This document shows positions 5,828-17,285 of a stretch of 31,085 nt of DNA, one piece after another. Origin of the DNA: a virus. The notes under the pieces were generated by a model that saw nothing but the letters and a program-made list of their open reading frames with translations, had not been told where the DNA came from and searched no databases. Location: positions 1 to 31,085 of IMG/VR virus record IMGVR_UViG_3300021138_000117, one strand, 5' to 3'. The position numbers and the translations under genes were made by a program. How positions within the stretch are numbered: the first letter of the stretch is position 1; every line of letters starts with the position of its first letter.

Positions 5828-5862
5828 TACACTCTGGACAATGCGCTGAAAAGATCGCGCGA
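5828..5862 (+). promoter_or_regulatory. Promoter P4 (-10) and leader hairpin 4 before terS
   Basis: AAGTTACACT at 5824-5833 resembles the P1/P2 end GAGTTATACT; the -10 box is TACACT (5828-5833). No good -35 box lies at the normal distance. Starting at A5841, 8 nt after the -10 box, GCGC (5843-5846) can pair with GCGC (5857-5860) around TGAAAAGATC. The 13 bases ATGCGCTGAAAAG are identical to those in hairpin 5 at 13706. Here the GTTTA tail is missing. Confidence 0.5.
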
Positions 5863-5873
5863 AAGGAACAGAG

Positions 5874-6386
5874 ATGACAAAACGAAAAGATCCTGCAGAC
5901 TTCAAACCAAATGGACGACCATCAGGATACTCACTAGAGAAAGCACAAGCACTGTGTGAGAGGCTTGCACTAGGGGAGAGCTTAGCTCAGATTTGCAGGG
6001 GCGATGATATGCCCAGTCACGCTACGATTTATACATGGTTACGGAACCATCCAGAGTTCCTTGAGCTATACACGCGTGCGCGCGAAGAGCAGGCTGAGAC
6101 TCACGCTGACGAAATCGTGTCCATTGCGGACGAGACGCCTGAGACGGCGCCAGTGTTCGACAAGGAAGGTAAGCAGATCGACATCAAGTTGGACTCGGCT
6201 TACATCCAGTGGCAGAGACAGCGCATTGATGCAAGGAAGTGGAACGCCGCCAAACAGCGCCCACGCAAGTACGGCGAGCGCATCACGCACTCTGGCGACG
6301 ATACGAGCCCTGTAGTGGTGGAGAACAACATGAACGTGTTCGGCGAGCTCCTCAAGGCCATCAAGATGCAAAGGCAAGCTGAATGA
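5874..6386 (+). CDS. terS: Terminase small subunit
   Basis: The DNA-recognition subunit of the packaging motor: it binds the phage packaging site and regulates the large subunit encoded just downstream (ATGA overlap at 6383). The 170-residue length fits Sf6-type small terminases. After a basic N-terminus (NGRPSGYS), residues about 20-62 form a helix-turn-helix region (AQALCERLALGESLAQICRG, then MPSHATIYTWLRNHPEF). Long helices for oligomerisation follow (YTRAREEQAETHADEIVSIA), then a W-x3-R patch (QWQRQRIDARKWNAAK) and the KYGERI motif commonly seen in this family. AAAGGAACAG precedes the ATG. The gene is the first of the late cassette. Confidence 0.88.
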   Translation: MTKRKDPADFKPNGRPSGYSLEKAQALCERLALGESLAQICRGDDMPSHATIYTWLRNHPEFLELYTRAREEQAETHADEIVSIADETPETAPVFDKEGKQIDIKLDSAYIQWQRQRIDARKWNAAKQRPRKYGERITHSGDDTSPVVVENNMNVFGELLKAIKMQRQAE

Positions 6387-7813
6387 GTGTCGTTGACGCG
6401 ATACTAGATGACGAACCAACTCTTTTTGAAGAGTATAAAAAACTCACCCCTACAAATCAGATTGCTTTTAATTGGCAAGCGAAGTGGCAAATCCAAGCGC
6501 ACAAGCACCAGATTGAGCCTCCAGGCGATTGGTGGGCCATCTGGCTCATGCTCGCAGGCCGTGGAGCAGGCAAGACCCGCGCGGCGGCGGAGACCTTAGC
6601 GTCATGGGCGTGGAACCAACCCAACACGCGGTGGCTTGTATCGGCCCCTACCAGTGGCGACGTTAAGGGCACATGTTTTGAAGGTGATTCTGGCCTGCTT
6701 TCCATTATCCCCAAGGAGCTCGTGGCCGACTACAACAAAGCCCTCCATGAGATTAAGCTAGTCAATGGCTCATTCATCAAGGGCATCCCTGCATCAGAAC
6801 CAGAGCGCTTCCGTGGCCCCCAGTTCCACGGTGGATGGTTGGATGAGTTGGCCGCGTGGGAGTACCTCCAAGACTCGTGGGATATGATTCAGTTCGGCAT
6901 CCGATTGGGTAAGCACACCAAGCTGATTTGCTCTACCACGCCAAAGCCTAAAGATTTGATCCTTGATCTGGTGGGGCGCGAAGGCGACGACGTGGTGGTG
7001 ACCAAAGCATCGACCTACTCCAATATTGCCAATCTGGCTCCATCGTTCCAGAAGCAGATTCTTCAGTATGAAGGCACCAACCTTGGCCGCCAAGAAATCC
7101 ACGCCGAGCTCATCGACATGGAGGAGTCAGGCATCGTCAAGCGTACATGGTTCCGACTCTGGCCTGATGGTAAGCCCTTCCCCAAGCTTGAATACATCAT
7201 TCAGAGCTATGACTGCGCTACATCCGATAAGACATACAACGACCCCACTGGATCGATCACTATGGGCGTGTTTAAGCCTATGGATGGCGGTATGTCCGTG
7301 ATGATCCTAGACTGTTGGCAAGAGCATCTCCAATACCCTGATCTGCGTCCCAAAGTGCTTGATGAGTATGAATCAGTCTTCGGCGAAGGACGGGACAAGA
7401 AGCTTGTGGACTTGGTTCTGGTGGAGGACAAGAGCGCAGGCATCTCACTCATACAAGACTTACAGAGGGCGCATCTGCCTGTGCATGCGTATAACCCTGG
7501 CAAGGCGGATAAAGTCCAACGCCTATCCATCGTGGCCAACATCATCAAAGCAGGGCGCGTGTGGGTGCCTGAGTCCAGTAAGCGCAAAGGCTTCGTCCGT
7601 GACTGGGCTGAAGGCATGGTGAGCCAGATCTGCTCTTTCCCTGAGACCGCACACGATGAGTTCGTGGACTGCATCAGCCAAGGGCTCCGATACCTGCGTG
7701 ATGCAGGATGGATCAGCATCGATGCGCCACCTCGTGAGGAGCTTATGCAAGAGGACATCGACGACGCAGAACTCTACAACAGGAAGGGTCGATCAAACCC
7801 CTACTCGCAGTGA
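6383..7813 (+). CDS. terL: Terminase large subunit (ATPase and nuclease)
   Basis: The motor ATPase and headful/site nuclease that cuts concatemeric DNA and pumps it through the portal. The 476 residues carry a Walker A AGRGAGKT (58-65), a Walker B GGWLDE (150-155; D154, E155 catalytic), a coupling motif LICSTTPKP (181-189) and a C-terminal RNase H-like nuclease with acidic residues in QSYDCA (D277), LVEDKSAG (E348, D349) and HDEFVDC (D425, D429). The full set of motifs and the normal length argue for an intact enzyme. It resembles the large terminases of the COG5323 type. It overlaps terS by ATGA, and the tandem palindromes at 7818-7863 begin five bases after its stop. Confidence 0.95.
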   Translation: MSVVDAILDDEPTLFEEYKKLTPTNQIAFNWQAKWQIQAHKHQIEPPGDWWAIWLMLAGRGAGKTRAAAETLASWAWNQPNTRWLVSAPTSGDVKGTCFEGDSGLLSIIPKELVADYNKALHEIKLVNGSFIKGIPASEPERFRGPQFHGGWLDELAAWEYLQDSWDMIQFGIRLGKHTKLICSTTPKPKDLILDLVGREGDDVVVTKASTYSNIANLAPSFQKQILQYEGTNLGRQEIHAELIDMEESGIVKRTWFRLWPDGKPFPKLEYIIQSYDCATSDKTYNDPTGSITMGVFKPMDGGMSVMILDCWQEHLQYPDLRPKVLDEYESVFGEGRDKKLVDLVLVEDKSAGISLIQDLQRAHLPVHAYNPGKADKVQRLSIVANIIKAGRVWVPESSKRKGFVRDWAEGMVSQICSFPETAHDEFVDCISQGLRYLRDAGWISIDAPPREELMQEDIDDAELYNRKGRSNPYSQ

Positions 7814-8138: not shown

Positions 8139-10904
8139 ATGAATAAGCCCAAACATAAATATCCTCTTAGCCACGCGCATGAACAAGCGCGTATCAATGC
8201 TATTAAGACACTTGGTTTGCATGAACATAATACAGCGGAAGATCGAGCAAAAGCTTTGGGTTTTGATTTAGAAACATTTCATGGTACGGATGCGCCAGAT
8301 ATTGAATCATTAGACCCTGAACGAACAAAAATCATTAAGGGTGTATTTTCAACAACAAACCCTAAGATGGCATCTAGGTATGCGGAAGACGAAAGAAAAC
8401 GAGCAAAAGAAAAAACAGCACCAAATGTTTTGCCTCTTCTTGTTAAGTCTGCGTCACATGAATCCATCCCTAAATACGATATAAACACCATTAACGCCTA
8501 TAAAAATCGTGGTGCAAAAGGTGTATATCGTCCTGAAATGCAAACCGCAGTTACGTTTGACCCATCACAAATAAGATCAAGGTTTGCCGCATTTGATCCA
8601 CATAGAGTTCATGAAAACGATTTACTTGCCGCAAGGGGCGGTGAAATAAAACACAAAGCAACTGGAGGCTCCATGCAACCACAATCAGAACCCACACTAG
8701 CCCAAATGCGCTTAGAGGTTGCTCGTCACAGCAACCCCGCAGTGATGAACAACATCGGCGTCAATGAAGCCGTGGACATCGATCCCAAGATGTTTGTTAA
8801 CCCCAATCCCAATTCATCTGGATTGCCTGATGTGGGTGGCGTGAAGACTGACAAAGGCGCTTTGCCTGTTGGTGGCGTAGACGTTAATCCAATGATGGCG
8901 GGCACACAGTTCATGCCCCAACAACCACAGCAACAGCCACCACAAGGCCAACAAAGCCCATTCCCTAGCATGGCTCCTTCTGGCTCTGGCATGCCACAAA
9001 GTCCAAGCAATATCTTGAACCTGACGCCTCAAGGTCAAGCCATGAGCGCCATCAAGCCACCGATGCCGAATGCGGTTCCACAGCCACCTAAGATGGCCAA
9101 GGGTGGATCTATGCATCACTTTGCTAAAGGCGGAAGCCAGAAAGAAAAAGCAGAAGAGTCTAAGCGTATTCTGGTAGAAGCCACAGGGCCAAATGGCATC
9201 AAGGGTATTGTTATTCCACGTCACATGTTGGAAGGCAAGACCTATGGTGGTACTGGGCCTAAAGCAGGACAGAAAGTTGAAGGACTGCACGATCTAAACA
9301 AAGCAAGAGCTAAAGTCTATGGATCAGAAAATCGTCCACCGTTAAACATTGGACAGATGGGCAGAATTCACAAGCAAGTATTGAGTGATCACTTTGCCAA
9401 ACCAATTGATGAGCAAACAAAAGCCGAAAAAGAAGCTTTAGAAAGATTGCGCGAAGCCAAGCACATTGGATCTAAGGCAAACACATTGGATGAAAGCGAG
9501 AAGCTTGATACAGTGCGCCATGAGACCGATGACCAAGGACGTACTCATGTGGGTTATGCGGCCAAGGGTATTGCAGGCCATGCGCTGTATTCATCTGGCG
9601 ATGGCAAGAATGAAAAGTTGCATGTGTTGAATACATGCCCTGGTCAAGTTGATGGGTGTGGTGGTGGCATTGATCAGAATGGAATCGTGGATACCAAACG
9701 TGGCTCATGCTTTGCCCCCAATGCTGAATCACAATACGTCAACGCGGCAGTACGTCGCGCCGCTCATGCCCAAGCCAAGCATGACCCTGCTATGACCCGT
9801 GATTGGGTTCTGGCTCATACTGGCTCATTGCGTGAAGCCGCTGATGAAGCCGATCAGAACAATCAGCGTTTATTGTTCAGACCCAATGTGGTGGATGAAA
9901 GCGATACATCATCACGTCATGTATTGCGTGGATTAAATGAACAACGCAAAAAAGAAGACAAACCACCAATTATTGCTAACAGCTATGGTAAGACTAATGA
10001 GTTGCACGATCCTGAAAATCATTACCATGTGACCCATTCCAATGTTGGCCCCAAGACCAAACACGGAAAAGAAATTACTGAAAGTATCAAACGCGACAAA
10101 GCAAGAGTGCGTAATACGATTTTGGCTAGAGACAATCAAGGTGACTTTGTTAATGAGCAAGGCAACAAGACGCCACCTAAGAACTCATACATGGTGACCA
10201 ATGTAAAGCGTGGCTCACCATTCGACAAAAATATGCAGAACACCATCACGCATGCTAAGTATTGGTCAATCCCAAGGCCAATAAACGAGCTTACAGAGAT
10301 GGAAAAGGACGAGGGTAGTGAAGGCCACTATGATGGCAAAGGAAAAACCACAACCCCTGATAAATCTCATTATGGACATATGGTCATAGGAGATAACCGT
10401 TACGACTATCAAAAGCAACACATATTGCATCCAAGGCTAGTTCAAGTGGGTACAAACAATGATGGTACGCCCCACATGATTCCTACGGACTCACGCTTCT
10501 TGGACAACAAAGAGTTGGACAAAAAGATTCCACGAAGCAAGCAATTTAAGACTAAGAATGGTAAGCGCGCAGGCTTGATTTTGATGACGACTCCAACAGA
10601 GTCCACGCCTAATCATGAACATCATTCATCGTTTACGCATGATGTAAACCCAACGCACTTAGAATACGCCAAGAAAAATAACGGTGAATATGAAATTGAT
10701 CCACCATTGGCTCAAGAATTTGCAAGGGGCAAAGAGTATGTTGCACCTGAACCCATGAAGATGGTTAAGAAAACATGGGCTACTGGTGGAGCTGTACATT
10801 CATCATTAAAGCAGTTGGACTATAACGATGACTTCAATGCATTTCCTGAAACAAATTTTGCTTCACAGCACCATCTTGCAAAGCGCCGAGCAACTAAAGA
10901 ATAA
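8139..10904 (+). CDS. Large multidomain virion-associated protein with ART-like N-terminus (921 aa)
   Basis: It sits between terL and portal. Residues 30-155 resemble the ADP-ribosyltransferase domain of phage polyvalent proteins: NTAEDRAKALGF, then FHGTD with H48, a VFSTTNP strand (69-75), RYA, and AVTFDPSQIRSRFAAFDP (137-154). If active it would transfer ADP-ribose from NAD to a host protein after ejection. Residues 190-320 are a Pro/Gln/Met-rich linker (PQQPQQQPPQGQQ). KGGS motifs follow near 325-335. Residues about 340-890 form a large Cys/His region with C500, C507 and C524 (NTCPGQVDGCGGG, RGSCFAP) and several His-rich stretches; the Cys pattern recalls gp88-like phage proteins, but only weakly. 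It ends with another GG motif (ATGGAV). Activity and target are inference. Confidence 0.6.
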   Translation: MNKPKHKYPLSHAHEQARINAIKTLGLHEHNTAEDRAKALGFDLETFHGTDAPDIESLDPERTKIIKGVFSTTNPKMASRYAEDERKRAKEKTAPNVLPLLVKSASHESIPKYDINTINAYKNRGAKGVYRPEMQTAVTFDPSQIRSRFAAFDPHRVHENDLLAARGGEIKHKATGGSMQPQSEPTLAQMRLEVARHSNPAVMNNIGVNEAVDIDPKMFVNPNPNSSGLPDVGGVKTDKGALPVGGVDVNPMMAGTQFMPQQPQQQPPQGQQSPFPSMAPSGSGMPQSPSNILNLTPQGQAMSAIKPPMPNAVPQPPKMAKGGSMHHFAKGGSQKEKAEESKRILVEATGPNGIKGIVIPRHMLEGKTYGGTGPKAGQKVEGLHDLNKARAKVYGSENRPPLNIGQMGRIHKQVLSDHFAKPIDEQTKAEKEALERLREAKHIGSKANTLDESEKLDTVRHETDDQGRTHVGYAAKGIAGHALYSSGDGKNEKLHVLNTCPGQVDGCGGGIDQNGIVDTKRGSCFAPNAESQYVNAAVRRAAHAQAKHDPAMTRDWVLAHTGSLREAADEADQNNQRLLFRPNVVDESDTSSRHVLRGLNEQRKKEDKPPIIANSYGKTNELHDPENHYHVTHSNVGPKTKHGKEITESIKRDKARVRNTILARDNQGDFVNEQGNKTPPKNSYMVTNVKRGSPFDKNMQNTITHAKYWSIPRPINELTEMEKDEGSEGHYDGKGKTTTPDKSHYGHMVIGDNRYDYQKQHILHPRLVQVGTNNDGTPHMIPTDSRFLDNKELDKKIPRSKQFKTKNGKRAGLILMTTPTESTPNHEHHSSFTHDVNPTHLEYAKKNNGEYEIDPPLAQEFARGKEYVAPEPMKMVKKTWATGGAVHSSLKQLDYNDDFNAFPETNFASQHHLAKRRATKE

Positions 10905-10913
10905 GGATAGATA

Positions 10914-13373
10914 ATGGCAGAAGATATCAACATTGACGAACAGGAAGACGGATCTGCTGTTGTGGACATGCCAGAGATGGATGTCGATGAACTGCCAGAT
11001 GGTTCAGCGGTCATACAAATCGACGATGGCCCTGAGTTTAATCCTGACTTTTATGACAACTTGGCTGATTCAATTAGCCCGAGCGTTGTCAGTGATTTAG
11101 TTTCCAGATACCGTGATCTACTTGAGTCTGACAAAGAAGCTCGTGAACTGAGGGACAAGCAGTATGAAGAAGGAATCAAGCGCACAGGGATGGGGAATGA
11201 TGCGCCTGGTGGTGCAACCTTCATGGGCGCATCCAAAGTTGTTCACCCTGCAATGGCAGAGGGCTGTGTTGACTTTGCCGCTCGCGCCATTAAAGAGCTC
11301 TTCCCATCCGATGGGCCCGTTAAGTCGAAAATCATCGGGAAGCAAGACGACCTGAAGTCGGCCATTGCTGACCGTAAGGTTGACTTCCTTAACTGGCAGA
11401 TCACCGAGCAAATGGGTGAGTTCAGGGATGAGCTAGAGCAGTTGTTGACTCAGTTGCCTTTGGGTGGATCACAATACATGAAGCTGTGGTACGACGAAGA
11501 CAAGAAGCGTCCATGTATTGAGTTTTTGCCAATTGACCGCGTGATTTTGCCTTTCGCGGCGACTAACTTCTACACGGCACAACGTGCGGCTGAAGTGCAT
11601 GAGATCACTCAGTATGAGATGGATCGACGCATTGCTTCTGGCATGTACCGCGATATCAACTATGTTCAAGCCACCGAGAACATGGAAGAGGGAAAAGTTG
11701 CCAAAGCCAACAACAAGATTGAAGGTAAGCAGTTTGAAGCCAATAAAGATGGACTGCGCAAGGTTTACCACATTTACACATGGTTGGAGTTGGAAGACGA
11801 CAAGGAAACGCATGGTAAGAGCGCTCCCTACATCTTCATGATTGATGAATTAGACAATGAATGTCTAGGCATGTATCGTAACTGGGAAGAGAGCGATGAA
11901 ACCATGTCCAAGTTGGATTGGGTGGTTGAATTTAAGTTTATCCCTTGGAGGGGTGCATATGCGATTGGTCTCCCTCATCTCATTGGTGGATTGTCCGCCG
12001 CCCTCACTGGCTCGCTTCGTGCGCTCTTGGACTCAGCCCACATCAATAACGCGGCCACTATGCTCAAGCTTAAAGGAGCTAAAATTAGTGGGCAGAGCCA
12101 ACAGATCGACGTTACTCAAGTAGTTGAGATTGAGGGAGCGCCAGGCGTTCAGGACATCCGTCAAATCGCCATGCCCATGCCCTTCAACCCACCAAGCCCT
12201 GTGCTATTTGAGCTATTAGGCTTCTTGGATAAGGCTACAAGCTCCGTTGTGACCACAGCCGAGGAGAAGATAGCTGACGCCACTTCTCAAATGCCTGTGG
12301 GCACTACACAAGCTTTGATTGAGCAAGGTTCACACGTTTATTCATCCATCCATGCTCGCTTGCATGCATCGCAAGCTAGGGTGTTGAAGATTCTTTGCCG
12401 ATTGAATCGTTGGTACTTTGACGACATGCAAAAGGGTGAGGACGTATCTGACCTTGAAGTAACCCGTGAAGACTTTGCTCGCAACACGGACGTTGAGCCA
12501 GTATCAGACCCCAACATCTTCTCTGAGACTCAGCGCATGGCTCAGAACCAAGCGGTATTGAGTCTGGCACAACAACACCCTGATCAATTCAAGATGAGTG
12601 CGGTGTTGGCTCGTTTGCTTAAGCAAATGAAGATACCCAACATTGAGCAGATCATGGTGGATGTGCCCGCACCTGAACAACGTACGTCAGCGGATGAGAA
12701 CGCGGCCATGTTGTTGGGTCAGACTGCATATGCGTATGTACAGCAAGACCACATTGCGCACATCCAAGACCATCTGCAGTTTGGATTGAATCCATTCTTC
12801 GGCCAGTCTCCATTTGCAGATCCTAACTATTTAAACAACCTCATTGAGCACATTAAACAGCACATGACGTTGTGGTACATCAATAGGTCAAACGGATACG
12901 TTGAGGACGCAACAGGAAAGCCTGTGGACGACTATGACGACCCCAACTACACGCCGACTATCGACAAGATATACACGACGATTGGCGCGCATGTGATGAT
13001 TGATACACAACAAGTGTTTGGTCAATTTACACCTGCGTTTCAAAAGCTTATACAGATGTCACAGCAAGGCAAAGGGCCTGCACCTTTACCACCTGATGCA
13101 CAAGTCGTTAAAGACACAAGCACTGCTGAGACACAACGTAAGACACAAAAAGATCAGCAAGACTTCCAAATTGCACAAGCCAAGTTGCAAAAAGATATGC
13201 AAGAACACGCGATTGACAATCAGACAAAGATTCAGATTGAAAACGCAAAGTTGACGCATGAGACCGTTCAAACGGTGGCTCAAGCTCAAGCGCAGGCCCA
13301 ACCGCCTGCGATTCCTGCGGCACCCGCCGCTCCCGTAACCCCTGAACAAGGAGCTCCAAATGGCAACATCTGA
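10914..13373 (+). CDS. Portal protein
   Basis: The dodecameric ring at one head vertex through which DNA enters and leaves, and on which the terminase docks. At 819 residues it is long, as are P22-type portals. The acidic N-terminus contains DGSA twice (12-15, 29-32). The core follows: DLVSRYRDLLESDKEARELR, VHPAMAEGCVDFAARAIKELF (a wing region), LPIDRVILPF and GLPHLIGGLSAALTGSLRALL, then EKIADATSQMPVGTTQALIEQG, where the ring's tunnel-loop region would be. The last 100 residues are a Gln/Lys/Ala-rich coiled coil and an Ala/Pro tail, like the barrel end of long portals. The start follows AAGGATAG. Position, length and the conserved segments together make this call strong. Confidence 0.88.
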   Translation: MAEDINIDEQEDGSAVVDMPEMDVDELPDGSAVIQIDDGPEFNPDFYDNLADSISPSVVSDLVSRYRDLLESDKEARELRDKQYEEGIKRTGMGNDAPGGATFMGASKVVHPAMAEGCVDFAARAIKELFPSDGPVKSKIIGKQDDLKSAIADRKVDFLNWQITEQMGEFRDELEQLLTQLPLGGSQYMKLWYDEDKKRPCIEFLPIDRVILPFAATNFYTAQRAAEVHEITQYEMDRRIASGMYRDINYVQATENMEEGKVAKANNKIEGKQFEANKDGLRKVYHIYTWLELEDDKETHGKSAPYIFMIDELDNECLGMYRNWEESDETMSKLDWVVEFKFIPWRGAYAIGLPHLIGGLSAALTGSLRALLDSAHINNAATMLKLKGAKISGQSQQIDVTQVVEIEGAPGVQDIRQIAMPMPFNPPSPVLFELLGFLDKATSSVVTTAEEKIADATSQMPVGTTQALIEQGSHVYSSIHARLHASQARVLKILCRLNRWYFDDMQKGEDVSDLEVTREDFARNTDVEPVSDPNIFSETQRMAQNQAVLSLAQQHPDQFKMSAVLARLLKQMKIPNIEQIMVDVPAPEQRTSADENAAMLLGQTAYAYVQQDHIAHIQDHLQFGLNPFFGQSPFADPNYLNNLIEHIKQHMTLWYINRSNGYVEDATGKPVDDYDDPNYTPTIDKIYTTIGAHVMIDTQQVFGQFTPAFQKLIQMSQQGKGPAPLPPDAQVVKDTSTAETQRKTQKDQQDFQIAQAKLQKDMQEHAIDNQTKIQIENAKLTHETVQTVAQAQAQAQPPAIPAAPAAPVTPEQGAPNGNI

Positions 13374-13527
13374 TTACGAACAGAGAACCGCTAATGTGCC
13401 CCAACACAAGCGTATCGCTCAAGGCGAGAAGCTTGATGGCACAGCGATGGAACCAAAAGGTGGAAGTAAATCTTCATCTTCTGGCTCTAAATCTGGCGGA
13501 CTATCACACGCTAGTAAGAAGAAATGA
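13360..13527 (+). CDS. Small basic Ser/Gly-rich KGG protein (55 aa)
   Basis: The ATG overlaps the end of the portal gene by 14 bp in another frame and follows AAGGAG (13348-13353). The 55-residue product (MATSDYEQRTANVPQHKRIA) ends in a low-complexity basic tail with PKGGSKSSSSGSKSGG. This KGG signature is shared with several larger virion-region proteins in the window. The stop overlaps the next ATG. Function unknown; a minor virion or DNA-binding peptide is possible. Confidence 0.6.
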   Translation: MATSDYEQRTANVPQHKRIAQGEKLDGTAMEPKGGSKSSSSGSKSGGLSHASKKK

Positions 13528-13703
13528 TCGAAGCATTGATCCACAGGATCAAAATACGGCAAGCAGAATTGCAGGTTTCCTTGGCTCAAGGCATTCCGCA
13601 GAACTATGAGTCGTATCAACGCATGGTTGGTGAGTATGCAGGTGTGCAATACGTTTTGGATACCATCGACAACATGTTGGAAGAAGAGAAAGATTACGAT
13701 TAA
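13524..13703 (+). CDS. Conserved small phage protein downstream of portal (59 aa)
   Basis: Starts with an ATGA overlap. The product, MIEALIHRIKIRQAELQVSL followed by an AYAG-type segment (YQRMVGEYAGVQYVLDTIDNML), is a two-helix protein. Short ORFs of the pattern 'LI-RIK-RQAE...Y-RLVGEY-G...VLD-ID-ML' are common right after portal genes in podovirus-like genomes, but they have no assigned role. An antiparallel helical hairpin that helps portal or connector assembly is a reasonable guess. Its end overlaps promoter P5. Confidence 0.65.
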   Translation: MIEALIHRIKIRQAELQVSLAQGIPQNYESYQRMVGEYAGVQYVLDTIDNMLEEEKDYD

Positions 13704-13723
13704 CCATGCGCTGAAAAGCGCGT
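13695..13723 (+). promoter_or_regulatory. Promoter P5 (weak) and leader hairpin 5 before the co-chaperonin gene
   Basis: ATGCGC (13706-13711) and GCGCGT (13718-13723) form a 6-bp stem around TGAAAA, followed by TTAT. It begins 6 nt after a possible -10 box, TACGAT (13695-13700). I see no convincing -35 box. The 13 bases ATGCGCTGAAAAG are the same as in hairpin 4 before terS, so both head-cassette transcripts may share the leader. Confidence 0.5.
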
Positions 13724-13756
13724 TTATGCACCTGAGATATGGTGTGAAGGAAAAAT

Positions 13757-14209
13757 ATGACTGAAAGCAAGCCTATTCCCACAATCGAGGGAAGTAGCGG
13801 AACGCCCAATGCTGATGAATTAGCTTGGGCCTTTCCTGAAGTAAGCCCAGGGCAACGCCCCTTTGGCGGTCGAGTGATTGTCCAACTTCGACGAATCAAA
13901 AAGAAGTCTGGAATGATCATCATTGTTGATGAAACCAAAGAAAACGAGAAGTGGAACAACATGATCGGTAAGGTCGTGGCCATTGGCCCACTCGCGTTCA
14001 AGAACCGAGACACCATGCAACCGTGGGCTGAAGGCTCATGGGCTGAAATTGGTGACTATGTAAGGGTTCCGAGGTGGGGTGGAGACCGTTGGGAGCGCAA
14101 AGTTCCCACTGAAGACGGTGAAGATCCCGTTTTATTCATGACAATCAATGATCACGAATTGATTTCGGCCGTCACTGACGATCCGTTATCGTTTAAAGCT
14201 TACGTTTAG
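13757..14209 (+). CDS. GroES-like co-chaperonin (Cpn10)
   Basis: Phage co-chaperonins replace GroES on the host GroEL so that the capsid protein can fold (T4 gp31 is the classic case). Residues 35-142 show the GroES barrel: PFGGRVIVQLRRIKKKSGMI, then GKVVAIGP (71-78), IGDYVRVPRWGGD (98-110) and LFMTINDHELISAV (126-139), which match the GroES signatures 'R-V-V', 'GKV-AVG-G', 'VGD-V---K-GG' and 'i-ddeila'. The segment 49-63 (KKSGMIIIVDETKEN) takes the place of the GroEL-binding mobile loop; its III triplet stands where GroES has IVL. The N-terminal 30 residues are extra. The gene has a leader hairpin and sits directly before scaffold and capsid genes. Confidence 0.7.
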   Translation: MTESKPIPTIEGSSGTPNADELAWAFPEVSPGQRPFGGRVIVQLRRIKKKSGMIIIVDETKENEKWNNMIGKVVAIGPLAFKNRDTMQPWAEGSWAEIGDYVRVPRWGGDRWERKVPTEDGEDPVLFMTINDHELISAVTDDPLSFKAYV

Positions 14210-14218
14210 GAGTAAAAA

Positions 14219-15193
14219 ATGGCTGAAGTCAAAGAGAAATTAGAGGTTGAAGAGCAAAATGACGGCTCTGCAACCGTAGAGGTGCCTGAAAAAGACCTTG
14301 TACCTGACACTGTTGAGGAACAAAACGGTTTTGATCGTGCAAAAGAGTCAAATGACTCTAACGACGCTGATGCTGATCATCCAGATGACGATGAAGAGCT
14401 CAGAGCCGCTAAAAGAAACCGTCGTCGGGCTAAAAAAGACTTGGTTCGTAAGACAAACCAAGAAAAAGACGTCCGTCTACAAGCTTTACAGCGTGAAAAC
14501 GAAGAGTTTAAACGTCGTCTAAGCCAATTGGAGCGCAATACCAAGGCAGAACATGTCGTGCGTATTGATAAGAACATAGAGGACGCACAAACGCGCCTTG
14601 AATACGCCAAAATGAAGATTGCCGAAGCCACTCAAAACCAAGATGGCCAAGGTATGGTTGATGCACAGTTACTTTTGCAAAATGCGTCGGACGAAGTTCG
14701 TCAATTGAAGCAAATGCGTAATCAAGCTGACCAAGAATTGAAGCGTCCACAGCAAAATAATGCTCAAGACCCTGCTATTGCACGTCGTGCAAATGAATGG
14801 GTACGCCGTAATAGTTGGTATGACTCAAGCCTTCGTGACCCCGATAGTAAAGTGGCAAAGAAGGTGGATGAGCTGATGGTTGCACAAGGTTGGAACCCTA
14901 CAGATCCCGACTATTGGGACGAGCTTGATAGCCGTTTGCAAAAAGAACTACCTCACCGTTACAATGATCGCAATGACGACGAAAAACGTAATGTCAGACG
15001 ACCGAGGAATGTTGTGGGAAGTGCAGGACGTGAAGCATCAGCATCTTATGGGGGATCTAATCGCTCCCAGTTTGTACTTTCGCCTGAGAGGGTGAAGGCT
15101 ATGAAAGATGCAGGCGCTTGGGAAAATCCTGAACGCAAAGCCAAGATGATTAAACAATTCATGGCATATGACCGTGCCAACCGCAACAACTAA
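14219..15193 (+). CDS. Putative scaffolding protein
   Basis: A 324-residue, very charged, mostly helical protein just upstream of the decoration and capsid genes, the usual place of the internal scaffold. Its acidic N-terminus has EEQNDGSATVEVPE, closely like the portal N-terminus (DEQEDGSAVVDMPE). An Asp-rich disordered stretch (SNDADADHPDDDEELR) leads to a basic helix (AAKRNRRRAKKDLVRK) and a long coiled coil (about 85-180). The C-terminal part has NEWVRRNSWYDSSLRDPDSK and LSPERVKAMKDAGAWENPE, where a basic capsid-binding end would be expected. AGGAG precedes the start. Role inferred from composition and position; homologues are often called scaffold or hypothetical structural. Confidence 0.65.
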   Translation: MAEVKEKLEVEEQNDGSATVEVPEKDLVPDTVEEQNGFDRAKESNDSNDADADHPDDDEELRAAKRNRRRAKKDLVRKTNQEKDVRLQALQRENEEFKRRLSQLERNTKAEHVVRIDKNIEDAQTRLEYAKMKIAEATQNQDGQGMVDAQLLLQNASDEVRQLKQMRNQADQELKRPQQNNAQDPAIARRANEWVRRNSWYDSSLRDPDSKVAKKVDELMVAQGWNPTDPDYWDELDSRLQKELPHRYNDRNDDEKRNVRRPRNVVGSAGREASASYGGSNRSQFVLSPERVKAMKDAGAWENPERKAKMIKQFMAYDRANRNN

Positions 15194-15205: not shown

Positions 15206-15751
15206 ATGGAATCACGTCTCAAAAAATCTTTGAATGCCAATGGCCGCCAAGACCGCTCGAACGGGGAAGCAAGCCATAAGGCACCAGAAGACAAGTTCAT
15301 TTCTGCGCAGGAACGTAAAAAAATGTGGAGCGAGGAGTGGACGCAATCAGCATTGCCAAAGTTACCCGAGATGGAAGGGTGGCATCCTTGCTGGCTTTCG
15401 ACAACCAACAGCTACGATTCAATCGATAAGCGGATTAGACTAGGGTACGTTCCTGTGAAAGCAGATGAGTTACCAGGCTACGAAGACTATCGCGTTAAAT
15501 CAGGTGAGCACGTTGGGTATATATCTTGTAACGAGATGTTGCTGTTTAAGATACCTATGGAAATTTTCCAAGACGTTATGACACACATGCATCACGACAA
15601 ACCTCGTGAAGAAGCAGAAAAGGTAATGATCCAAATGGAAAACCTACAGGGACAACGTGACAGTAACGGACGTCGCTTGATGGAGATTGAAGGCGAGGGT
15701 ATTGGCTCTATTGACAAGCAACCAAGCAAAATTCCCGTATTTTCGGGTTAA
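15206..15751 (+). CDS. Conserved structural-region protein between scaffold and capsid (181 aa)
   Basis: It starts after AAGGGGAAAA. The 181 residues begin with a disordered basic region (ESRLKKSLNANGRQDRSN), then have a conserved-looking core with SALPKLPEMEGWHPCWLSTT (about 49-68), SYDSIDKRIRLGYVPVKADE and GYISCNEMLLFKIPMEIFQD. The 'WH-CWLSTTN-YD-I--R-RLGY-PVK' pattern occurs in the same location in other uncultured phage genomes that I recall, always without a function. The C-terminal helix and acidic tail may contact the scaffold. Possibly a head-assembly factor. Confidence 0.65.
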   Translation: MESRLKKSLNANGRQDRSNGEASHKAPEDKFISAQERKKMWSEEWTQSALPKLPEMEGWHPCWLSTTNSYDSIDKRIRLGYVPVKADELPGYEDYRVKSGEHVGYISCNEMLLFKIPMEIFQDVMTHMHHDKPREEAEKVMIQMENLQGQRDSNGRRLMEIEGEGIGSIDKQPSKIPVFSG

Positions 15752-15769: not shown

Positions 15770-16360
15770 ATGTCAAGTACATCAGCTCCGTTTGGCTTGC
15801 GTCCTGCGTTCCACCCTTCTGGATTGGATCGCGCACAGGCGCTTGCTAACGGTATCACTTCTGGTTACAGCACCAACATTCTGAAGGGACAACCTGTTGC
15901 CTATTCAGCATCTGCAGGTGTTATTGTTCCTATTACTGCTAACAGCACTCAGGCCACATGGTCTGGCGCATTTGCGGGTGTTGAGTGGACAGATACTACA
16001 GGTCGTCGTCGCGTAAGCAACTACTGGCCTGCTAACACTGCCTACACAACTGGCTCATGCGTTGCTTATTTCTACAACGATCAAAACATTGTTTATGAAA
16101 TTCAAGCAGATGGATCTATGGCTCAAACTACTATTGGTAACGAGTATTTGTTCACTAACGTGACAAATGGTTCTACCACTACTGGTTTGTCACAAGCAAC
16201 TCTTGGCGCTTCTTCAGCCGTTGGTAATGCCCAACCTGGTCAAATGCGCGTTGTTGATTTGGGCCAAGGAGTGGACAATGCGTGGGGCGATGCCTACACA
16301 GTTGTTCGTGTTGTTAACTCAGCTTCTCAGTTCTTCGGTACTGTGAACGCTATTGCATAA
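15770..16360 (+). CDS. Putative capsid decoration protein (196 aa)
   Basis: Directly upstream of the major capsid gene and preceded by TAGGAGAAA. The N-terminus SSTSAPFGLRPAFHPSGLDR (residues 2-21) is the typical start of a family of beta-rich head proteins encoded beside the capsid gene. The rest is Gly/Thr/Ser/Ala-rich with regular short strands (YSTNILKGQPVAYSASAGVI; YNDQNIVYEIQADGSM), as in decoration or stabilisation proteins that sit on the capsid surface. No enzymatic motif. A very abundant virion protein is expected, which fits the strong ribosome site. Confidence 0.65.
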   Translation: MSSTSAPFGLRPAFHPSGLDRAQALANGITSGYSTNILKGQPVAYSASAGVIVPITANSTQATWSGAFAGVEWTDTTGRRRVSNYWPANTAYTTGSCVAYFYNDQNIVYEIQADGSMAQTTIGNEYLFTNVTNGSTTTGLSQATLGASSAVGNAQPGQMRVVDLGQGVDNAWGDAYTVVRVVNSASQFFGTVNAIA

Positions 16361-16370
16361 GGGGTAAATC

Positions 16371-17285
16371 ATGGCCGCACCAATGCGAAGTACGGACTTT
16401 AGATCAATCGTTGAGCCTATTCTTAACGAGTGTTTTGACGGAGTCTATGATCAACGTGCCGACGAGTGGAGCCGTGTGTTCCGCGAAGAAGACGGTATTC
16501 CCCGTAACTACCACGAAGAGCCTGTCCTTTATGGATTTGGCGCCGCTCCCCAGTTGCCTGACGGTACTCCCGTTACATATCAACAGGGCGGTGTGTTGTT
16601 CTTACAGCGTTACCTCTACAAAGTGTATGGCTTGGCCTTTGCACTGACTAAGGTTCTCGTTGAAGACGGCGACCACATCCGTTTGGGCCAAGTGTATGCA
16701 CGTCACCTTGCACAGTCTTTGGTTGAGACCAAAGAGTTGTTGTCAGCTAACGTGTTGAACACTGCGTTCAACTCTTCATACCCTGGCGGTGATGGTGTGT
16801 CTTTGATTAACACTGCACACCCAATCGTCAACGGTACATTCAGCAACCAATTGTCTACAGCCGCTGTGTTGTCTCAAACATCTCTTGAGCAGATGTTGAT
16901 TCAAATCCGCCAAGCAGTGGACAACAACGGCAAACGTATTCGCTTGGTTCCACGTCAACTGATCGTGGCCCCAGGCAATATCTTCCAAGCTGAAGTGTTG
17001 TTGAAATCAGTATTGCGTACTGGTAACGCAAACAACGACATCAACCCAATCAAGTCTATTGGCTTGCTTGACGAAGGTGCCGCTGTGTTGTCACGTTTGA
17101 CTTCTGCCACAGCATGGTGGGTTCAAACCGATGCTCCCGAAGGCTTCAAGCTTTTGATGCGTCGTCGTTTGGAGAAAACTATGGAAGGCGACTTTGAAAC
17201 TGACACAATGCGCTACAAGGCTACTGAGCGTTATGCAGTGGGCTTTACTGACCCACGTTGCGCTTACGGTACCCCAGGCGTTTAA
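16371..17285 (+). CDS. Major capsid protein
   Basis: The 304-residue product fits the HK97-fold capsid group that resembles the Mu gpT major head subunit: an N-terminal helix (FRSIVEPILNECFDGVYDQR), a P-domain stretch (YLYKVYGLAFALTKVLVEDG), LAQSLVETKELLSANVLNTA, and the characteristic LINTAHPIVNGTFSN (about 143-157) that corresponds to the 'LF-T-HP---G---N' signature. The A-domain follows with PRQLIVAPGNIFQAEVLLKS. The C-terminus TERYAVGFTDPRCAYGTPGV is typical too. It lies after the scaffold and decoration genes and is followed by a terminator, as expected for the most strongly expressed gene. Confidence 0.88.
   Translation: MAAPMRSTDFRSIVEPILNECFDGVYDQRADEWSRVFREEDGIPRNYHEEPVLYGFGAAPQLPDGTPVTYQQGGVLFLQRYLYKVYGLAFALTKVLVEDGDHIRLGQVYARHLAQSLVETKELLSANVLNTAFNSSYPGGDGVSLINTAHPIVNGTFSNQLSTAAVLSQTSLEQMLIQIRQAVDNNGKRIRLVPRQLIVAPGNIFQAEVLLKSVLRTGNANNDINPIKSIGLLDEGAAVLSRLTSATAWWVQTDAPEGFKLLMRRRLEKTMEGDFETDTMRYKATERYAVGFTDPRCAYGTPGV

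Follow-up and report, generated by a model that had tools for sequence, protein, structure and literature searches.

Why should a phage carry a GroES-like gene of its own amongst the genes for its head, and for which protein would such a co-chaperonin be made? The question is raised by an open reading frame at positions 13757–14209 (forward strand) of the window, the whole stretch of 31,085 nucleotides of viral DNA that was analysed. The original prediction, made from the letters alone, described the product as a GroES-like co-chaperonin in the head cassette that may adapt the host GroEL to the capsid protein in the manner of T4 gp31. Phage co-chaperonins are usually discussed through T4 gp31, and otherwise as scattered finds. 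In the present case a freshwater phage has its own GroES lid beside its capsid genes, as do related phages of very different bacteria.

The reading frame begins with an ATG codon and encodes a protein of 150 amino acids, which passes the cut-off of the Pfam Cpn10 family (PF00166; 22.6 bits against 21.1) over residues 34–89 and matches PHROG_3188, ‘co-chaperonin GroES’, with an E-value of 2e-6. Relatives are encoded on 265 viral contig stretches when one query is used and on at least 593 with a profile, and hence the frame is not a chance ORF. A family profile built from 46 relatives of the protein returned solved GroES/Cpn10 chains from the PDB, with E-values of 4.6e-6 for Thermus and 1.1e-5 for Mycobacterium. 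When the single protein was compared with the PDB by phmmer the top matches were designed TIM barrels, but these were set aside as chance because they stem from one short KK-G-IIIVD-T stretch that is repeated in the designs, and the family profile returned GroES instead.

The fold of the protein was predicted with AlphaFold as a single chain, from the alignment of these relatives and without templates, giving a mean pLDDT of 80.6. The model matches GroES/Hsp10 chains, with Foldseek values of 7.6e-6 to 1e-4 and a Z score of 9.4 over 93 residues, and it also matches T4 gp31 (1g31 and 2cgt, with Z scores of 8.0 and 7.1). Oxidoreductases, which are unrelated but contain a similar barrel, score from 6.2 downward. 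Within a library of viral structures the best matches are annotated as GroES of uncultured phages. A fold other than the GroES barrel, set beforehand as the refutation of the prediction, is thus excluded by the matches to GroES and gp31, and together with the Pfam and PHROG matches the model bears out the assignment as a GroES-like co-chaperonin. The protein is a member of a group of phage co-chaperonins that is already known, as close relatives carry a GroES annotation, and GroES has been annotated in the pelagiphages HTVC023P and HTVC027P and in the Roseobacter phages CRP-901 and CRP-902 (PMC9599517, PMC10149686).

The protein shares with bacterial GroES the barrel fold, the mobile loop and the hydrophobic tripeptide, but is considerably longer than the approximately 96 residues of its bacterial counterpart. 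An N-terminal extension of about 30 residues had been foreseen and is confirmed (residues 1–32, positions 13757–13852, forward strand). It bears the conserved motif LAWAFPxVxPG, with its WAFP core, and residues 21–30 have a mean pLDDT of 87. Both the extra N-terminal and the extra C-terminal segments, absent from bacterial GroES, are conserved among relatives. In common with T4 gp31 the protein is a phage-encoded co-chaperonin of the same fold with a longer mobile loop and a tie to the capsid, although the two are only about 16–18% identical in structural alignments. The gp31 protein is without roof loops (PMC6318259), whereas the window protein shows no shortening between its two flanking barrel glycines, with 21 residues between them against 17 in cellular GroES, a segment that may or may not form a roof.

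The mobile loop had been called unusual, in part for having III in place of the IVL of GroES. This part of the claim fails. Alignment with the GIII, GIVI and GIVL forms places the tripeptide at Ile54-Ile55-Ile56 (13916–13924, forward strand), and the same GIII is the usual form in proteobacteria, found in 28 of 32 readable GroES loops (GIVI in three and GILL in one). These come from 34 sampled cellular proteobacterial loci that were taken as the best-scoring Cpn10 matches and are therefore biased towards typical GroES. What does set the loop apart is its C-terminal arm and the loss of a glycine. The arm that follows the tripeptide, up to the next barrel glycine, comprises residues 57–70 (13925–13966, forward strand); it is 14 residues long in all 170 distinct phage relatives and 10 residues long in all 32 cellular loops. 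Among isolates of the same capsid lineage the arm is again 14 residues, with 15 in one, and the Alcaligenes protein aligns poorly in this region. The mobile loop of gp31 is likewise extended, with 22 residues against 16 in GroES (PMC6318259), and on comparison of the sequences we take the longer loop to be a feature common to capsid-linked co-chaperonins. No description of a lineage-wide loop length was found in the limited open-access literature that was searched. In the model the loop is of low confidence (pLDDT 64–74).

A double glycine before the tripeptide is common in GroES but is not strictly defining, since SG is found in some cellular proteins. The pair is absent from the loop of the window protein. 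Of the 86 distinct proteins in the clade of the window phage, 85 have R, M, K, L or V in place of the second glycine, whereas all 84 proteins of the Caulobacter- and Roseobacter-phage groups, like the sampled cellular loops, retain it. An intermediate relative (L285, TAGRIILVEE) has the substitution without the one-residue deletion of the window protein, which indicates that the replacement arose without that deletion. In GroES itself the G24D exchange gives a temperature-sensitive mutant (PMC3514286), and by analogy the loss of the glycine may have altered the affinity of the clade's co-chaperonin for GroEL.

The lost glycine, the conserved terminal segments and the location among structural genes could also be read as signs that the protein has drifted away from co-chaperonin work, either to block or divert host GroEL or to serve as a virion or assembly protein built on a GroES barrel. 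However, almost every member retains a hydrophobic GroEL-contact tripeptide and the model shows an intact barrel, from which the GroEL-binding surface appears to be under selection, and a drift of this kind is considered very improbable.

The location itself is well supported. A terminase gene is found at 6383–7813, and the genes from portal to capsid lie on the forward strand. The portal gene (10914–13373; 819 aa, phrog_1216 portal with an E-value of 1e-22) is upstream of the co-chaperonin gene, with a small ORF of 59 aa (13524–13703) between it and the leader; a similar ORF precedes the gene in MW202545. Downstream are a scaffold-like gene (14219–15193; 324 aa), a conserved head-cassette gene of 181 aa (15206–15751) known from the conserved gene order, a decoration-like gene (15770–16360; 196 aa) and the gene for the major capsid protein (16371–17285; 304 aa, 33.7 kDa). 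The putative scaffold function is assigned by position and conserved gene order and the putative decoration function by position and conservation; the capsid protein is identified by matches to Pfam Phage_capsid_4 (1.2e-11) and Mu gpT (3.6e-6) as well as by the capsid annotation of relatives. The order portal, cpn10, scaffold, 181-aa gene, decoration and capsid is kept, as far as the contigs reach, in the first 84 loci except L004, which is the most distant of them and is only partly matched. A protein of 921 aa is encoded between terminase and portal (8139–10904 of the window) and shows weak matches to GP88 and to ART-PolyVal, the ADP-ribosyltransferase domain found in polyvalent proteins (the latter with E 0.0014, below the cut-off); it is perhaps a polyvalent protein delivered alongside the phage DNA.

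The association of the gene with this capsid extends well beyond the clade. A search with the capsid protein gave 21 phage records, and GroES occupies the same slot in all 16 of those checked that have a capsid identity of at least 31%, a count that covers the records opened or located. Two more records, H20 and H22, equal the Planktothrix phage in size. The hosts of the 16 are Caulobacter, Roseobacter, SAR11, Gammaproteobacteria, Planktothrix (cyanobacteria) and Alcaligenes, and some of the phages have no known host. In two records with capsids at 30% and 26% identity the slot is empty and a Cpn10 gene is found elsewhere in the genome. HTVC023P, HTVC027P, CRP-901, CRP-902 and the Caulobacter phages RW and KcrB carry genes already annotated as GroES and share the slot, the capsid lineage and the 14-residue loop arm with the window phage, but keep GG before the tripeptide. 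A further difference from bacterial GroES is that no partner groEL gene was found in the genomes of 11 relatives, some of which may be incomplete records, and the partner is thus presumably the GroEL of the host.

The constant slot in 16 of 16 records across such hosts, taken with the missing phage GroEL, supports a capsid-dedicated co-chaperonin of the gp31 kind that would work with host GroEL. It is likely, on the evidence of family, fold and position, that the protein acts as a GroES-like heptameric lid on host GroEL in the folding of the head proteins of this capsid lineage. In such a scheme the phage protein would assemble into a heptameric ring resembling that of GroES and cap the host GroEL, and the closed chamber would help to fold head proteins, most likely the major capsid protein encoded four genes downstream. 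The proposed likeness to gp31 stands as regards family, fold and position, but is weaker as regards the rationale of a larger cage for an oversized capsid protein. The T4 capsid protein gp23 is about 56 kDa (PMC6318259), whereas the capsid protein of the window phage, at 33.7 kDa, should fit the ordinary GroEL-GroES cage, and hence the T4 rationale does not transfer simply and it is not evident why a special lid should be needed.

This ordinary size would also fit a general extra supply of co-chaperonin for many phage proteins during infection, with the place by the capsid gene reflecting late expression only. GroES acts broadly and gp31 is able to replace it for E. coli proteins (PMC6318259), which would be consistent with such a role. 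A dosage gene should, however, be lost or moved more often, and general supply is an unlikely explanation for a gene that stays strictly linked to a single capsid lineage in hosts that are not related, and whose loop is lengthened throughout that lineage. With one capsid lineage that holds GroES in a constant slot, with a lengthened loop and in very different hosts, the question of whether the lid is made for the capsid becomes testable in the culturable Caulobacter and Roseobacter phages.

The gene is preceded by an intergenic leader of 53 nucleotides (13704–13756, forward strand), recognised by its fold, by covariation and with a covariance model. A single leader hairpin had been proposed; the hairpin is real but there are two of them, in tandem. 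The first (13706–13723) has a stem of 7 bp closed by a GAAA loop of the GNRA type, the second (13728–13745) has a stem of 5 bp and the conserved loop UGARAUAU, and a ribosome-binding site, AAGGA (13747–13751), follows 5 nucleotides upstream of the start codon. The predicted fold has a z score of -3.3 and its minimum free energy structure is the same as the centroid. In this fold the ribosome-binding site is unpaired and outside both hairpins, so that the leader does not appear to hide it, and an RNA thermometer was rejected as unlikely.

Both hairpins show covariation of base pairs as well as conservation of sequence. Across 52 relatives, standard pairs fill 98.5% of the pair cells, with 30 double-changed cells spread over six of nine pairs. 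All cells of hairpin 1 are paired, with compensatory changes in four of five counted pairs, and 96.6% of the cells of hairpin 2 are paired, with compensatory changes in two of four. These covariation values were reached by none of 500 shuffles, and the signal is lost when the partners are slid. Mean pairwise identity is 0.84–0.89 in the stems and loops, 0.50 in the linkers and 0.38 at the fourfold-degenerate sites of the same genes. The covariance model gives the leader of the window 71 bits, recovers members that were left out of its building and locates a single strong copy per genome in ten genomes of the clade.

The leader is, moreover, tied to a single gene. On the forward strand, 156 of 180 matches to the motif in 794 kb of relatives lie within 100 bases upstream of the cpn10 gene. 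When 2.9 million viral contigs were scanned, 79 stretches came up, and of 72 that were newly fetched a co-chaperonin gene with WAFP comes next in 70, a close variant in one and a copy cut by the contig end in one. By the covariance model the genomes of the Caulobacter and Roseobacter phages have no strong copy, nor was the twin-hairpin leader found in those checked of the pelagiphages, CRP-901/902 and RW/KcrB. Elsewhere, in 12 records searched, there are weak matches only, the best with an E-value of about 0.006, far below the true copies. A search of the whole window against Rfam 15 gave no match with an E-value of 1 or below, and no description of the leader was found in the limited open-access literature searched. 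The leader hence adds to the locus a conserved, strongly covarying RNA that is uncatalogued.

The first hairpin of the leader recalls the lambda-type boxB hairpin, with a short stem closed by CU-GNRA/GNNNA-AG, a resemblance that serves as a lead only; the window leader differs in being a tandem with a different second hairpin and in adjoining the start codon. The GNRA-type loop is equally a generic stable fold, and in some relatives the leader hairpins are followed by U-runs. Both hairpins could on these grounds be no more than weak terminators of transcription, or elements that stabilise the mRNA in a generic way, without a specific partner, which is a real possibility, if rather short of an even chance. 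A plain intrinsic terminator is, however, judged unlikely in the window, as the hairpins have no U-run and a terminator scan flagged neither. The loop of hairpin 2, with a mean pairwise identity of 0.87 against 0.38 at fourfold-degenerate sites, also argues against a generic element; its conservation favours recognition by a protein and suggests that this recognition is sequence-specific. Within the proposed mechanism the leader would set expression of the co-chaperonin apart from that of the upstream genes, by way of mRNA protection, mRNA punctuation or a protein-binding site. The binding protein might be, for example, the co-chaperonin itself, a protein of the capsid or the scaffold, or a factor supplied by the host. 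A more far-reaching proposal, that the leader is a new cis-acting RNA whose specific protein matches lid to capsid production and that the long loop is the sign of a lid adapted to a single capsid lineage, is tentative and on balance doubtful.

A degenerate version of the leader precedes the gene in L287, a relative at 48% identity, which implies that the leader predates the immediate clade. Upstream of position 8004 in L287 the place of the window leader is taken by a pair of nearly identical hairpins, GCGCCGAATGGCGC and GTGCCGAATGGCGC, with a T-run after each of them, hinting that the leader may derive from a duplicated hairpin. In the window itself a weak single-hairpin look-alike, GCGCTGAAAAGATCGCGC, is found at 5838–5876 directly before a gene starting at 5874, although with an E-value of about 0.3 it may be due to chance.

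Some relatives of the co-chaperonin fall in betaproteobacterial metagenome bins. One of these, G012, contains at its loci L289, L296, L299 and L300 a normal GroES together with three different phage-type Cpn10 genes, which means that more than one of these related phages is present in it, and for this reason a betaproteobacterial host is only a hint. A Cpn10 gene (42883–43134, 38 bits) is also found near a terminase gene in BK063670, a virus assigned to the methanogenic archaea of the Methanomicrobiales, and it would be interesting if a virus of archaea carried a group I lid.
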